DNA of 64,000 nt, taken from Chitinophaga filiformis. Lineage in GTDB: Bacteria; Bacteroidota; Bacteroidia; Chitinophagales; Chitinophagaceae. Made by a program: the position numbers and the translations under genes. Position 1 is the first letter of the stretch. Every line of letters begins with the position of its first letter. The notes below the pieces were generated by a model that searched no databases, was not told the DNA's origin, and saw only the letters and a list, made by a program, of their open reading frames with translations. This document shows, piece after piece, positions 13,146-58,492 of the stretch. The stretch lies in NCBI RefSeq assembly GCF_023100805.1, contig NZ_CP095855.1, positions 3,823,001 through 3,887,000 on the forward strand, read 5' to 3'.

Positions 13146-14522
13146 ATGGAACATCAACATAAAGAACATTCCCTGCTCGCGGATGAATTTAATGCCAATG
13201 AGCCCCGTGTGAACTGGCATGATGAAACACTCTGGTGGGTACGTCAGAAGAGGGATAAAATGGCCTGGAGTATTCCCGAATGGGAAGAGCTGAGAGAGGC
13301 GGCGTCCCGCATTAAACACAACGTGCTGGGCAACCTGCATGATTACCTGCTGGAGTTCGAAAAGAATGCACAGGCCAATGGTGCGGTGGTACACTGGGCT
13401 GCTGATGCGGCGGAGCATAATAAGATCGTGCTGCAACTCCTGCAGCAGCAGGGTGTGAAACGCATGGTGAAAAGTAAGTCCATGCTCACCGAAGAATGTC
13501 ATTTGAATCCATATCTCGCTGAACACGGTATTGAGGTGATAGATACGGACCTGGGTGAACGTATTGTACAATTGGCGAAAGAACCGCCAAGTCATATCGT
13601 ATTGCCCTGTATCCATAAAAAGAAAGAGGAGATAGGCGAACTGTTTCATGAACACCTGGGCACTCCTGCGGGGAATGCCGATCCCAAGTTCCTGACTGCC
13701 GCCGCGCGTCAGCACCTGCGGGCGGAATTCATCCAGTCGCGGGTAGCTATTACAGGTGTGAACTTCGCAGTAGCTGAGACAGGAGAGATGGTGGTTTGCA
13801 CCAATGAAGGCAACGCCGATATGGGCGCTCACCTGGCAGATGTACATATCGCCTGTATGGGTATCGAAAAGATCATTCCTCAAAGAAAACACCTCGGTGT
13901 TTTCCTTCGCTTACTGGCCAGAAGCGCTACCGGCCAGCCTATTACCACTTACAGCAGTCATTTCCGCGCACCTAAAGCAGGACAGCAGCTGCACATTGTG
14001 CTGGTGGATAATGGCCGTAGTCGTCAGCTGGGGCGTGAGGATTTCCGTAACTCGCTGAAATGTATCCGTTGCGGGGCTTGTATGAATACCTGTCCTGTGT
14101 ACCGTCGTAGCGGCGGACATAGCTATCATAACGCTATTGCGGGGCCGATTGGCGCTATATTGGCGCCAAACCTGGACATGAAGGAATATGCAGACCTGCC
14201 CTTTGCATCTACCTTGTGCGGTTCCTGTTCCAATGTATGTCCGGTGAAGATCGATATCCATCAGCAGCTCTATAAATGGCGGCAGGTGATCACACAGGAA
14301 GGATATACAAAAAAGACGAAAGCCGCCGGTATGCATGCCATGAATATCGTATTGTCCAAACCCGGATTATATAAAACTGCCGGAGGCGTTGGACGTTGGG
14401 TGATGAGAACATTCCCGGCTGTTGTGAACAATGGTCTGAACCCATGGTTCAAACAGCGTGAAATGCCGGCACCGCCCAGGGAATCATTTGCCGACTGGTA
14501 CAAGAAGAACAGGAAGCAATAA
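13146..14522 (+). CDS. lutB: L-lactate utilization 4Fe-4S protein LutB
   Basis: The protein (458 residues from this start) has a large LUD-type N-terminal region and a ferredoxin-like C-terminal part with two cysteine clusters: CIRCGACMNTCPVY from residue 306 and CGSCSNVCPV from residue 358. These match LutB/LldF, the electron-transfer subunit of the LutABC lactate oxidase. I prefer the ATG at 13146; an in-frame TTG at 13137 would add three residues, and neither has a clear ribosome site. It begins 28 bases after lutA. Confidence 0.9.
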   Translation: MEHQHKEHSLLADEFNANEPRVNWHDETLWWVRQKRDKMAWSIPEWEELREAASRIKHNVLGNLHDYLLEFEKNAQANGAVVHWAADAAEHNKIVLQLLQQQGVKRMVKSKSMLTEECHLNPYLAEHGIEVIDTDLGERIVQLAKEPPSHIVLPCIHKKKEEIGELFHEHLGTPAGNADPKFLTAAARQHLRAEFIQSRVAITGVNFAVAETGEMVVCTNEGNADMGAHLADVHIACMGIEKIIPQRKHLGVFLRLLARSATGQPITTYSSHFRAPKAGQQLHIVLVDNGRSRQLGREDFRNSLKCIRCGACMNTCPVYRRSGGHSYHNAIAGPIGAILAPNLDMKEYADLPFASTLCGSCSNVCPVKIDIHQQLYKWRQVITQEGYTKKTKAAGMHAMNIVLSKPGLYKTAGGVGRWVMRTFPAVVNNGLNPWFKQREMPAPPRESFADWYKKNRKQ

Positions 14523-14533
14523 CAACAACTTCC

Positions 14534-14665
14534 GGTCAACTCCGTCAGGAGTAGTATGTTTGTAGCCCGGGACGACAACCCCGGGGACGGCACGCCCGGG
14601 ATGACAACCCGGGACGGCACGCCTGGATGACAACCCGGGAACGGCACGCCCGGGACGGCAATAAC
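14534..14665 (-). repeat. GC-rich dispersed repeat in the lutB-lutC spacer
   Basis: This spacer starts with ACTCCGTCAGGAGTAGTATG then TTTGTAGCCCGGG, followed by several near copies of CGGCACGCCCGGGA and GATGACAACCCGGGA units. The first part is the reverse complement of the motif repeated at 57.4-58.0 kb (CCCGGGCTACAAACACGTAG followed by CTCCTGACGGAG). It is non-coding, palindrome-rich, and interrupts an operon, so it will form hairpins in the mRNA. Confidence 0.75.
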
Positions 14666-43222: not shown

Positions 43223-43481
43223 TCACCGGATCAATACCGGGGTTTTACTATTCACGCAAAGTAGCTCCGGTTTCAGTATGGGATCACTGGCTGTAATTCT
43301 TTGAAGCTGCCTGCTATCAGGCTTTGGGAATCGTATCAGCGTTCGGATAGGAATGAAACCCCTGTCAATCGTGCGGGCATGCTTCAAAGAATTAAGGCCA
43401 GTGCTTCCCATCTGAAACCGGGTGCTACTTTCGCTCTCCCTACGATAATATATTTGGCTGCTTTCAGAATGATAAACATGT

Positions 43482-43558
43482 AATGGTATTATGATGCAAT
43501 GGTATTATGGTATTATGGTATTGTGGTATTGGTGTTATTGTATTGTGGTGTTATTGCG
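43482..43558 (+). repeat. degenerate TATGGTATT microsatellite
   Basis: The sequence walks through imperfect copies of ATGGTATT, TATGGTATT and TGTGGTATTG for ~77 bases. It lies in non-coding DNA, so copy-number change would not affect a protein. Confidence 0.8.
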
Positions 43559-43776: not shown

Positions 43777-43864
43777 GATACCGCTTTAATACCGCTAATC
43801 TTACGTTAAAGTTACGTTCAGGAACGTAAGATTAAGGTAGGATTAGCGGTATTAAAGCGGTATC
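43777..43864. repeat. long near-perfect inverted repeat (43-bp arms, 2-base loop)
   Basis: The left arm GATACCGCTTTAATACCGCT... (43777-43819) and right arm ...AGCGGTATTAAAGCGGTATC (43822-43864) pair with four mismatches around an AG loop. The tip, TTACGTTC-AG-GAACGTAAG, recurs in the hairpin at 45510-45608. Tandem AAAGCGGTATC-like units continue past the right arm to about 43888. Confidence 0.88.
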
Positions 43865-43891
43865 AAAGCGGTGTCAAAGCGGTATTTGTCT

Positions 43892-54316: not shown

Positions 54317-56095
54317 TTATAATGCGATCACTTTGTTCCCATTTATAAAGCGGGTATCTTTCACCGCTCCCGGGCCTTCGAAACGATATTGTACGCCCAC
54401 GATGTCTGTTGGCTGATAGTCGCCCGTAAAAGCAGCCGCTTCGTCTCCATCCACCAGTATCCGGATATGTTTGTCTTTCGCCTCTACTTTCAACTGTACC
54501 CACCGGCTCATATCTCTGCCAAACTTCGACAGGTCAGTATTTTTGCTTTGCATGGCTTTTCCGCCCGCAACGAGCAACAGATCTCCCACGCAACCTTTCG
54601 TACAGAGAGGAATAAAAAATACGTCATTCTTGCAAAGGATCAGGATCTGTACCCGCTGGCAGGCGGCTGAGCCCTGGTTAAAATTGCTCTTTACACTTGT
54701 TTCAAAGCTGAAATTGTCGGTCCGCAGGCTTCCCATGTCCTTTACATAGTAGAACCGCAGCATGGGAATGGCAGGTTGTAAGGAGATGTTGTACGCCTGC
54801 ATGGTAGCGGCATCCACTTCGACTGTATGCCCTTTCAGGAATTCCTGCTGACGGAAATATACAGGTACCTTTTCCTGCTCTACTGCAGCCAGCCAGCCGT
54901 CAGAGCTGATCATGAGGTCGTGCTCTTTCACGATCTGTTTCCCTGCTATCAGCTTGGCCCTGAAATAGCCCGGCAGGTAGTAGATGGATGAATATTCCGT
55001 CCTGTCTTTCGGTACGGCAAATTTCCGGCTCACATCCCATGACTGGGAGATGAATACGGAATCATCTCCGGCAGCGCTGGCATCGTATTTAAAGATCACG
55101 GAGTTGGGCACCCCTGTTGTGACGGTCTTGTTACTACTGAATTGATAAGCACCTGGATCTGTGGATGCCTGTTTGGAACGTCCGTTGGATAGCAAGGTCA
55201 CATACAGGATGATCGCTAAGGAGAGTAATCCCAATGCCCAGTAGGGCCATCTGCCGGACGGGTGTGTCTTTCCTCTCCGCGCCTCCGTGTTGTTCTGTGG
55301 CGCAGATGCCGAAACGCTGTGCCCTGGGTTTTCCGCTGCGCTCATGTTGCCATTTGCGCTGCTTGCCGGGGCGCCGGCTGATTGTAAGCCGGCCGCTGAC
55401 TGTTCGCGTGCAGCGTCGCCGTCTATCGTGTTCATTGCGGGGTTATCTGCCGGGCCGGATAGCTGACTGGCAGTTGCAATGCCATTGGAGGTGTTCGCGA
55501 ATTGGTCAGTTAGGGAAGGCAGCTTGCCGGCAGTAGTGGTCGCACCCGTGGTATTCCTTGCAACATCATCTGTTGAATCGGCTGGCTGTCTGTTAGCAGT
55601 GGTCGCACCTGTGGTATTCCTTGCAACATCATCTGTTGAATCGGCTGGCTGTCTGTTAGCAGTGGTCGCACTGGTGTTATTCCTTGCAAAATAATCCGTT
55701 GGGTCGGCGGGCTGTTTGATAGCAGCAGTAGCGTCGATGGCATTCGCCGCAAATTGATCCGTTGGGTCGGTCGCCTGGCCGGCAGCGGCAACCCGGGTAA
55801 CAGGAGTAGCTCTTTCAGCCGGTAGCTTCCGCCTGAAAGTACCCCAGTCCTCGTAACCGGCATAGCGGGCCAATGTATTCAGGGTAGTGACAGCAGGGGT
55901 ATTGGTGTAAGACAATTTTCCCCAAAGCCTTTTTAATGTTGTAATACTTAACACCACACCGGTGGCTTCCTGGATAGCATCACTCAGTTTTTCAAAGTCA
56001 TAGCTGCTCCATTCGCTGTTGGGCCCCCGGTCAAACCGTCGTTCCACCAGTTGCAGGCATCGCTGTATGTAATCTGTTTCTAAATTGTTTTCCAT
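54317..56095 (-). CDS. membrane-anchored protein with N-terminal HTH-like domain, 21-residue repeats and jelly-roll C-terminus
   Basis: The 592-residue protein begins with a ~90-residue helical domain (WSSYDFEKLSDAIQEATGVV, LSITTLKRLWGKLSYTNTPA, VTTLNTLARYAGYEDW) that resembles a Bacteroidota helix-turn-helix-like module. Residues ~106-230 are a run of 21-residue repeats of the form RQPADSTDDVARNTTGATTAN. A transmembrane helix (about 283-303, WPYWALGLLSLAIILYVTLL) follows. The C-terminal ~280 residues look like extracellular beta sandwiches, with a PKD-like part and a LamG-like part (DMSRWVQLKVEAKDKHIRIL). It could be a one-protein link between an outer signal and a cytosolic DNA-binding domain. 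It is divergent from the secreted jelly-roll gene at 56221. Confidence 0.72.
   Translation of the reverse strand: MENNLETDYIQRCLQLVERRFDRGPNSEWSSYDFEKLSDAIQEATGVVLSITTLKRLWGKLSYTNTPAVTTLNTLARYAGYEDWGTFRRKLPAERATPVTRVAAAGQATDPTDQFAANAIDATAAIKQPADPTDYFARNNTSATTANRQPADSTDDVARNTTGATTANRQPADSTDDVARNTTGATTTAGKLPSLTDQFANTSNGIATASQLSGPADNPAMNTIDGDAAREQSAAGLQSAGAPASSANGNMSAAENPGHSVSASAPQNNTEARRGKTHPSGRWPYWALGLLSLAIILYVTLLSNGRSKQASTDPGAYQFSSNKTVTTGVPNSVIFKYDASAAGDDSVFISQSWDVSRKFAVPKDRTEYSSIYYLPGYFRAKLIAGKQIVKEHDLMISSDGWLAAVEQEKVPVYFRQQEFLKGHTVEVDAATMQAYNISLQPAIPMLRFYYVKDMGSLRTDNFSFETSVKSNFNQGSAACQRVQILILCKNDVFFIPLCTKGCVGDLLLVAGGKAMQSKNTDLSKFGRDMSRWVQLKVEAKDKHIRILVDGDEAAAFTGDYQPTDIVGVQYRFEGPGAVKDTRFINGNKVIAL
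55406..55780 (-). repeat. 63-base tandem repeat inside the anchored protein gene
   Basis: Two copies are almost identical (unit starting AACAGACAGCCAGCCGATTC on the coding strand), with two or three diverged copies either side, all in frame (63 bases = 21 residues). Copy number can change by slippage without a frameshift. Confidence 0.82.
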
Positions 56096-56220
56096 TTGAT
56101 AATTAGTTTGTTAGCTTCCTGAACAGACTTGCACCAACTTGAACTCCCGCTGAATTGTCATCAAGTTACTTATTATTCAGTTTTGCCCCATTATCATTTG
56201 AAAACTTAAAACAACAGACC

Positions 56221-57354
56221 ATGTACAAGACATTCAGCCTCCTTTTCCTGCTCCTGTTCACGATGCAGTTGATGGCACAGCAGAAAGACGGAAAACGCCC
56301 GGGTAGATCCATGTCATCCCCGGCTATTATTAATGTGGCTATGAAAGCAGATAACTGGGACATCGCCCCCAATGTAGCGGAACTCATCACCTGGCACTCC
56401 GTTCCGGCATTGAAGGGCCTGGGTGGAAAAGGCTCGGCGGTGCTGAAGGACGTCGACTTTTCAGACGGGACGATTGAATACGATATGGAGCCCGTTGAGA
56501 ACGGCTTCGCTACCATTTTTTTCAGACAGGCTTCGGCGGAGGAAAGGGAATGCTTTTACTTCCGTACTTATGTTGCCGGCAATAGTGCTGCAATAGACGC
56601 TATCCAGTATGCCCCTTACCTGGGTAGCGTTAACATGTGGGATATGATGCCTTATTACCAGGGCAATGCCGGTTTCCAGCGTGAAAAATGGAACCATGTC
56701 AAACTGGTGATCGCTGGGAAACAGATGTGGGTGTATGTCAATGATATGTCCCGCCCTGCATTGAAAGTGCCCCGCCTCGAGGGCAGTACGGAACATGGCA
56801 GCATCGCTTTTGAGGGGAAAGGAGCTATCTTTTCCAACCTGGTGATTAAACCCGGACAGACGGAAGGGCTTTCTCCGCTGGAAGGCCCTGACCCTACCGA
56901 CAATGATCCGCGTTACCTCCGGGAATGGAAGATCAGTCAGCCGCTTGCAACAAAAGACGTCGACTTCAGTAATACATTCATGCCGGGTAAGGATGCCGCC
57001 TGGGAAGACATCTGGGCGGAAAGAAGGGGACTGGTGAACCTGACAAGGAAATTCGGACCGAGCCGTGAGCGCCGTATCGTATGGCTGAAGACCAACATCC
57101 ATGTGGACAAAGATCAGTCCCGTAAAATGAATCTCGGCTTCAGTGATGAGGTATGGGTGTTCATCAACGGCAAATATCTTTACGTGGATAAGAACCTCTA
57201 TGGTCAGCCGCTGTCTAAATTCCCCGATGGCCGCTGTTCTATTGAAAATACTTCCTTTAATGTTCCGCTGAAGGAAGGTGATAATGAATTGCTGATAGGC
57301 CTCGCGAACAGCTTTTTTGGTTGGGGGCTTGTGGCGAGGTTAGATGAATATTGA
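56221..57354 (+). CDS. secreted concanavalin-like (LamG/jelly-roll) protein
   Basis: From the ATG at 56221 the protein has 377 residues, with signal peptide MYKTFSLLFLLLFTMQLMAQ. The mature part reads as two jelly-roll modules: residues ~75-225 with VDFSDGTIEYDMEPVENGFA, FYFRTYVAG and WNHVKLVIAGKQMWVYVNDM, a pattern of LamG/DUF1080-like sugar-binding domains; then ~240-377 with a GFSDEVWVFINGKYLYVDKN core like glycoside-associated carbohydrate-binding modules. No catalytic residues are evident, so a binding role is more likely than hydrolysis. It is divergent from the anchored HTH/LamG protein. A long repeat array follows its stop. Confidence 0.75.
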   Translation: MYKTFSLLFLLLFTMQLMAQQKDGKRPGRSMSSPAIINVAMKADNWDIAPNVAELITWHSVPALKGLGGKGSAVLKDVDFSDGTIEYDMEPVENGFATIFFRQASAEERECFYFRTYVAGNSAAIDAIQYAPYLGSVNMWDMMPYYQGNAGFQREKWNHVKLVIAGKQMWVYVNDMSRPALKVPRLEGSTEHGSIAFEGKGAIFSNLVIKPGQTEGLSPLEGPDPTDNDPRYLREWKISQPLATKDVDFSNTFMPGKDAAWEDIWAERRGLVNLTRKFGPSRERRIVWLKTNIHVDKDQSRKMNLGFSDEVWVFINGKYLYVDKNLYGQPLSKFPDGRCSIENTSFNVPLKEGDNELLIGLANSFFGWGLVARLDEY

Positions 57355-57994
57355 TTCGGGGGCACGACCCGGGGATCGTGGTGGTTGTCACCCGCCCCGG
57401 GGTTATCACCCAACCCGGGGTTGTCGCCCAACCCGGGGTTATCACCCCGGGCTACAAACACGTAGCTCCTGACGGAGCTGATCGTAGCGGATGATTGCGT
57501 TATGTCGTCGCGTGGTTATTCCCACCTGGGTTATTCCGAACGGGGTTGTTATCGCAACCGGGTTGTTATGCTGCCTCGGGGTTGTCACCCAACCCGGGGT
57601 TATCCCCCCGGGCTACAAACACGTAGCTCCTGACGGAGCTGATTATAGCGGATGATTGCGTTGTGTCGTCGCGTGGTTATTCCCACCTGGGTTATTCCGA
57701 ACGGGGTTGTTATCGCAACCGGGTTGTTATGCTGCCCCGGGGTTATCACCCAACCCGGGGTTGTCACCCCGGGCTACAAACACGTAGCTCCTGACGGAGC
57801 TGATCGTAGCGGATGATTGCGTTATGTCGTCGCGTGGTTGTGAACATGCAGGTAGCTCCTGACGGAGCTGATTGTAGCGGATGATTGCGTTGTGTCGTCG
57901 CGTGGTTGTGAACATACACGTAGCTCCTGACGGAACTGATCGTAGCAGATGATTGCGTTATACCGTCGCGTGGTTATAAATATGCAGGTAGCTC
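57355..57994. repeat. 640-base non-coding repeat array (periods 161 and 68 bp)
   Basis: The landmark GTAGCTCCT appears at about 57462, 57623, 57784, 57852, 57920 and 57988: two spacings of 161 bases and then three of 68. Each unit contains CTCCTGACGGAGCTGAT and TAGCGGATGATTGCGTT followed by GTCGTCGCGTGGTT. The long units additionally carry CAACCCGGGGTTATC-like palindromes and CCCGGGCTACAAACACGTAG. The same motif occurs inverted at 14534-14665. Not CRISPR: repeats are contiguous and degenerate. Confidence 0.88.
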
Positions 57995-58492
57995 CTAGTG
58001 AAGCTGTGTGTTGCGAATGATATCTTTATACTTCTCAATCTGCCGCCTGTGGCGCAGGATGTGTACAATGGCATGCTCCATCATCTGCTCTATGTCATAC
58101 ACCTGTCCCCAACGGGCGGCAATTTTCTTTTCCTGGCTGAATTCTTCCAGTTCACTATCCTTTATATCCCGGAATACTGTTTCTGTAAACTGAAAAGCTT
58201 CTCTCAGATCACTGGTGTATGCCTGCACGGTAGTACGAAAGGTCTTCTCCGGCCGCACCGTCTGGTAGCCATAATAATGCAGAATGTAGATGGCATAACT
58301 GTAAGCGGAACTAACCACATGCGAGAGTATCGTCTGCACTGAACGGCAATTCTCATCGGTGGTGACTGTATCCACAACAGTGACCAGGTCATTGTCTGAA
58401 ATATCTGCAATGACCTGTTGTAATTCAGTGATCGCCTTTTCATATTCGTCCAGTAGCGCACCTTTTGCTCCTTGTCTGTATGCTTTAGCCAT
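57995..58492 (-). CDS. DinB-like four-helix protein
   Basis: The 165-residue helical protein fits the DinB/YfiT-like metalloenzyme superfamily. Candidate metal-binding histidines are in ILSHVVSSAYSYA (about residue 57) and EHAIVHILRHRRQIEKYKDI near the C-terminus (about 138-146), the spacing usual for the DinB His triad. Members transfer thiols or act as stress-related hydrolases, often of unknown substrate. It ends at the edge of the repeat array and faces away from the next gene. Confidence 0.75.
   Translation of the reverse strand: MAKAYRQGAKGALLDEYEKAITELQQVIADISDNDLVTVVDTVTTDENCRSVQTILSHVVSSAYSYAIYILHYYGYQTVRPEKTFRTTVQAYTSDLREAFQFTETVFRDIKDSELEEFSQEKKIAARWGQVYDIEQMMEHAIVHILRHRRQIEKYKDIIRNTQLH

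Follow-up and report, generated by a model that had tools for sequence, protein, structure and literature searches.

What is the array of nested repeats found in this window (the whole stretch of 64,000 nucleotides analysed here, from the genome of a soil bacterium of the genus Chitinophaga, contig NZ_CP095855.1), and how did its units come to lie there? We propose that the array, at about 57383-58021 of the plus strand, consists of GTAG-type repetitive extragenic palindromic (REP) elements that were moved by a cognate IS200-like transposase of subclass 1.2 and were then amplified in place. We consider this account likely, and its mobility is the part that we infer. The observations in its support are the membership of the units in a dispersed family, their paired structure, a shared tag, inverted copies around a transposase gene, a pairing of transposase clades with hairpin types, and the presence or absence of the element at orthologous sites. 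The elements themselves carry no gene for their movement.

Structure and dispersal of the element

The repeat family is dispersed over the 8.26-Mb genome, where a covariance model gave 133 matches in 525,637 bases at an E-value of 0.001. The analysed set comprises 128 of these matches, in 45 clusters of the fetched DNA (39 stretches), and the unit alignment was built from 62 units picked by hand. The window array itself is no product of chance, as it matches at least 107 places of its own genome, with 40 of 89 candidate regions scored. In the full element, which is about 55 bases long, the linker CTACAAACA joins two palindromes, the first of CCC/GGG type (hairpin A) and the other forming hairpin B; these three parts are the conserved core. 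Compensatory changes were found in both stems, with 53 cells changed on both sides; shuffling gave 13.3, and sliding the partners gave no more than 14. The conserved signature is GGCTACAAACA, whose complement sets GTAG at the foot of hairpin A: on the minus strand, 120 of the 128 units have GTAG immediately at the 5' foot of this hairpin, and the remaining eight feet carry ATAG (three), GCAG (three) or other letters (two). A GTAG placed terminally or at the foot of the hairpin is the published mark of GTAG REPs (PMC3733652 and PMC6006769). The landmark GTAGCTCCT highlighted by the first-pass annotation was considered as the REP tag and rejected, as GTAG precedes the CTCC stem in just 3 of the 119 units with a located hairpin B, and these three are the full units of the window.

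As single-stranded DNA the full unit gave a better fold than any of 200 shuffles, on both strands (z -4.4 and -3.9), and folding of the 68-base unit of the window array is unremarkable (z -0.8). The full unit also folds strongly as RNA (z -3.6 and -5.3), as the first-pass annotation had proposed to check, and folding therefore cannot separate DNA from RNA. Its suggestion of an RNA element gained no positive support, since Rfam gave only sub-threshold matches for the array and nothing in loci L001-L009, and covariation and folding suit single-stranded DNA and RNA alike. Acido-Lenti-1 RNA (RF01687), a candidate at 57754-57785 (hairpin A and linker), was rejected at 20.8 bits against a gathering threshold of 37.

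Spacer similarity is 0.81 within arrays, 0.51 between arrays and 0.48 after shuffling, and core similarity is 0.93 within and 0.80 between arrays. Spacers that are alike within arrays and at chance level between them suggest that the core reaches new sites and that each array then grows locally; the largest arrays have up to eight units. The elements are extragenic palindromes in many copies, some clusters overlapping doubtful open reading frames (ORFs) of our crude gene call. By the same gene call, clusters avoid divergent gene pairs (1/44 compared to 73/389, P 0.003) and are mildly enriched between convergent genes (14/44 compared to 71/389, P 0.04). No replication-strand bias was clear by eye, with units on both strands in both GC-skew halves.

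Orthologous sites differ in what they hold. Nine relatives, out of 27 with a DinB match, were compared at the site of the window array: the convergent genes overlap and there is no element in G261, G246 and G262, there is one element in G209 and G214 and a remnant in G210, and G227, G260 and G229 have a hairpin-containing gap of 60-61 bases. At the site of a second copy within the window, G210 and G262 have a full element, G214 and G261 a decayed one, and G209, G246, G227 and G260 none; for G224 and G258 the gene to the right of this site could not be located. The idea of an expanding dispersed repeat, one of those raised by the first-pass annotation, is supported by the many genomic copies, by none, one or six units at the orthologous site of relatives, and by an associated transposase gene. 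That annotation would have been refuted by an array that is unique, does not fold and does not vary in length, and on all three points the opposite was found.

The resident transposase and its relatives

A single Y1/HUH transposase gene (PF01797) was detected in the genome, at C1:8254390-8254851, outside the window. Inverted copies of the element enclose it, as is characteristic of GTAG REPs: six units on the minus strand precede the gene and one on the plus strand follows. Of five genomes compared, four have the gene next to the same pair of neighbours, the exception being Chitinophaga sp. YR573. At the syntenic site G246 (L227) lacks the gene and keeps hairpin relics, which suggests gene loss; G224, G227 and G260 hold 63-80 bases there, and the left neighbour was missing from the fetched DNA of G210 and G261. 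Chitinophaga filiformis and C. ginsengisoli have the nearest named relatives of the transposase. Related to IS200/IS605 TnpA, the protein passes the NCBIfam IS200/IS605 transposase model (79.8 bits, cut-off 55); with the curated REP transposase model NF047646 three genes, the resident one first, scored 37.0, 38.7 and 30.9 bits, below its cut-off of 80. The C. filiformis homologue is 92% identical, with Y115 as predicted catalytic tyrosine, and its structure model (mean predicted local distance difference test score, pLDDT, 86.8) matches the transposases of ISDra2 and IS608 (best E 1.7e-8), with REP transposase 4ER8 at rank 30 (E 5.6e-5). The Y---Q--HH signature of TnpA-Y1 subclass 1.2 is present in 42/42 genes, the resident one included, and in 73/78 genes of a second set. 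Members of subclass 1.2, an IS200-like lineage of class 1 transposases, are spread over the Bacteroidota; a 2018 survey (PMC6006769) describes the subclass as having low copy number, occurring in Bacteroidetes and being generally without terminal IS200 structures.

We measured inverted similarity between the two 200-base flanks of related genes. The first set consists of 42 genes with loci (30 from the family set and 12 from the genus set), leaving out family matches without a locus and the matches of G256 (23% identity); the second consists of 78 of 80 fetched genes, the other two being near contig ends. Some species occur in both sets, and the second contains many rows from closely related Chryseobacterium. 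At a score of 15 or higher, a threshold picked after the scores were seen, inverted flanks were found at 23/42 genes compared to 0/476 control ORFs, and at 54/78 genes compared to 0/200; the second control was 3/203 before removing three transposase genes that the filter had missed. A threshold of 12 gives 24/42 compared to 7/476 and 61/78 compared to 8/203. Positive loci include Chitinophaga, Flavobacterium, Chryseobacterium and Epilithonimonas. The general lack of terminal secondary structures given for subclass 1.2 does not describe many of these genes.

The linker motif CTAYAAACA stands inverted on both flanks of 56/111 distinct genes compared to 4/211 control windows, and on either flank of 92/111 genes compared to 46/211, with one mismatch allowed. 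Hairpins of at least six pairs on both flanks were not in excess (3/42 compared to 32/614, minus-strand loci not being reoriented). The pattern CTAYAAACASG followed by a GCTCC hairpin with a three-base loop, which misses four-base loops, occurs at 29 places in 7 of the 195 genomes of the family set, and a version with scrambled linker in 0/195. Six of the seven genomes have a transposase match and G163 is without; this co-occurrence is weak because 108/195 genomes have a match anyway. Beside the transposase of two relatives (loci L050 and L051), repeats of 46-48 bases recur about every 77 bases in an array that resembles clustered regularly interspaced short palindromic repeats (CRISPR).

Within the genus, about 63 candidates were scored per genome and model matches were found in 20 of 79 genomes, nine of which have at least 30 matches. 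The five genomes with the transposase clade of the resident type all fall within these nine element-rich genomes (P 5.6e-6, kinship ignored). A second transposase clade, 36-41% identical, occurs in seven genomes of the genus and is accompanied by a different hairpin, CCCAGGRCTnnAGYCCTGGG, with CTAT after it (ATAG when read on the opposite strand). This pattern, derived from two of the seven genomes, was found in 5/7 second-clade genomes and 0/72 others (P 9e-7, kinship ignored), with 99, 82, 10, 8 and 2 matches, a few places being counted on both strands; its reversed version occurs nowhere in the 79 genomes. Among the listed places of G211 and G252, many second hairpins stand in opposed pairs some hundred bases apart, and such pairs are the arrangement of REPINs (REP doublets forming hairpins). 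Six of the seven second-clade proteins form one branch of the protein tree, the tree not including the seventh (L094) because its reading ran through a stop, and the labels of type C form one branch (100/100). In G256 (loci L095-L101) a distantly related Y1 transposase (23% identity) is present nine times, as expected of a true insertion sequence.

Proposed mechanism, known systems and alternative explanations

According to the proposed mechanism, the product of the sole detected Y1/HUH gene would move the elements, now or formerly, as single-stranded DNA. The enzyme would bind the folded hairpin in the single strand, its tyrosine would cut near the RTAG/CTAY tag, and the element would be joined to a new, mostly intergenic site. 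Head-to-tail amplification of each insertion and its adjoining flank could follow, and this would leave every array with a period of its own (161 here) and with truncated repeats (68 in this case). Cutting and movement, like any role of the elements in the cell, are read from these features.

The anatomy is REPtron-like and the sequence marks of GTAG REPs are present, and the enzyme is outside the curated REP-transposase family. GTAG REPs with TnpA-REP (the REP-associated tyrosine transposase, RAYT) make up the REPtrons of subclasses 2.2, 2.4, 2.5, 2.7 and 2.8 in PMC6006769. They share with the present system short intergenic palindromes in many copies, a 5' GTAG at the hairpin foot, one resident Y1 gene amid inverted copies, and clusters that include local flank; unlike them, the present enzyme has the subclass 1.2 signature and falls below the REP-transposase cut-off, the element has a second conserved hairpin and a linker, and arrays are mostly head-to-tail. 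The signature, low copy number and occurrence in Bacteroidetes agree with the description of subclass 1.2 in PMC6006769, whereas the inverted hairpin flanks of many members do not. IS200/IS605 elements (IS608, ISDra2) have the Y1/HUH fold and are related in sequence, but here there is a single resident gene and the flanking elements are inverted and dispersed. TIRtrons also have a Y1 (TIRYT) gene between terminal inverted repeats (TIRs), some self-complementary and some dispersed, as PMC3733652 describes; that paper sets TIRs apart from GTAG repeats and our element carries GTAG. The main text of PMC3733652 does not name Chitinophaga, and the portions of the open-access literature that were searched, including PMC8266576 and PMC11194056, do not tie subclass 1.2 or Chitinophaga to REP elements.

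Several observations weigh against the proposed account. The flank score is below 15 in 19/42 and 24/78 genes, with negative flanks at all six loci titled Mucilaginibacter and both titled Dyadobacter, and types A and B are mixed among the labels of the protein tree. Four of the nine element-rich genomes of the genus have no Y1 gene over the cut-off (4/4 checked), so that persistence of the elements does not at present require the enzyme. Only six model hits were counted in G269, where there is a 54% relative, and six in G265, which has no match, and co-occurrence counts are not independent because the genomes are related. Moreover, all units have the same direction in 27/31 multi-unit clusters, whereas known REP families seldom form head-to-tail dimers (PMC3733652). 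Finally, three terminator-like sites in the array are hairpin B on the minus strand, and another use of the element is therefore possible.

This last point leads to the explanation that the elements are kept as transcription terminators or 3'-end structures of messenger RNA and that the transposase link is historical, which we consider unlikely. The position of clusters relative to gene pairs, the folding of the full unit as RNA and the hairpin in the 60-61-base gap of the outgroups would all suit it, as would six terminator-like sites in 57100-58300 compared to 1.4 (standard deviation 1.2) in shuffles. However, a strong T run is absent after the hairpins (tail ACGTGTTTGT), the linker, the tag, arrays of up to eight units and the clade pairing are needless for termination, and G261, G246 and G262 have the same genes without any element. 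Terminator use and movement as REP elements are compatible with each other.

It is very improbable that slippage and recombination alone made a local satellite, with the transposase as a bystander. Slippage would yield tandem arrays with locus-private spacers, and four element-rich genomes are without the gene, but slippage is growth in place and leaves unexplained one core in 45 clusters with chance-level spacers between arrays, inverted flanks at genes of many genera, and the second pair of enzyme and hairpin. We give equally little credence to an ordinary IS200/IS605-type insertion sequence whose ends were scattered as remnants. Although the NCBIfam name, the low score with the REP model and the nearest solved folds (ISDra2 and IS608) speak for it, the gene has a single copy here and the same neighbours in four of five genomes, its flanking elements are inverted as in REPtrons, GTAG stands at the hairpin foot, and elements far outnumber genes.

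Movement of GTAG-type REP elements by the subclass 1.2 enzyme would extend the pairing of REP and transposase to an IS200-like enzyme in Bacteroidota, supply partner DNA elements for a subclass described as generally without any, and explain many intergenic hairpin arrays. With somewhat less confidence, leaning only slightly towards it, we suggest that subclass 1.2 is a REPtron lineage in its own right, with clades whose own tagged hairpins fill genomes in parallel to the class 2 RAYT. Such REPtrons were possibly missed because outside Chitinophaga the hairpin is about ten bases off the RTAG tag and not on it. If this is true, the REP lifestyle either had more than one origin within the Y1 superfamily or predates the split of class 1 and class 2. 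Two pairs of enzyme and hairpin, together with species that carry elements but lack the enzyme, in one genus offer a natural test of whether REP persistence needs the enzyme.

Layout of the array and other features of the window

The GTAGCTCCT landmarks start at 57462, 57623, 57784, 57852, 57920 and 57988, and the spacings of 161, 161, 68, 68 and 68 reported for them can be read from the sequence. Tandem Repeats Finder (TRF) likewise returned both periods, 161 (57414-57839, 95% matches) and 68 (57784-57996, 89%, with a further row to 58021). The first-pass annotation placed the array at 57355-57994; it is there, and its span of 57383-58021 (TRF rows 57383-57447, 57414-57839 and 57784-58021) runs past that end. 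All of its parts are on the plus strand. Extra CCCGGG-type palindromes with an 18-base period (57383-57431; TRF 57383-57447) precede the first full unit, 57428-57499 (model R1, 85.3 bits), which consists of hairpin A at 57432-57451, CTACAAACA from 57452 and hairpin B at 57464-57479. The second full unit, 57589-57660 (81.1 bits), has hairpin A at 57593-57612 with one mismatch and hairpin B at 57625-57640, and the third, 57750-57821 (85.3 bits), has them at 57754-57773 and 57786-57801. The 68-base units at 57852-57919 and 57920-57987, seen in the sequence and by TRF, contain hairpin B only and reach 24.2 bits (at 57827-57889) and 23.3 bits (at 57896-57957), compared to 81.1-85.3 for the full units. 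The long unit had been described as a short unit with an insert, a description to be corrected in that the full unit with both hairpins is the usual form of the family. A degenerate last unit, also from sequence and TRF, occupies 57988-58021.

The left neighbour, at 56155-57354 on the plus strand, has a weak match to 3-keto-disaccharide hydrolase, below the Pfam cut-off, and the right neighbour, at 57995-58492 on the minus strand, is of the DinB family (PF05163, 25 bits, cut-off 23), with its stop codon beginning at 57995. The genes do converge, as had been noted, with the array between them. The array was also said to carry no gene; its internal ORFs of at least 60 amino acids are not counted as genes here, and the last unit enters the 3' end of the DinB-like gene. 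The second full copy within the window lies at 14518-14589 on the minus strand (model R1, 64.4 bits; also TRF and sequence), and further CCCGGG-type palindromes after it reach 14661. Elsewhere in the window, the ORF at 54317-56095 on the minus strand (592 amino acids) contains three copies of a 63-base unit at 55535-55725 (90% matches), a period that is a multiple of three, and short tandem repeats occur at 43478-43554 (8-22 bases) and 43845-43885 (11 bases).
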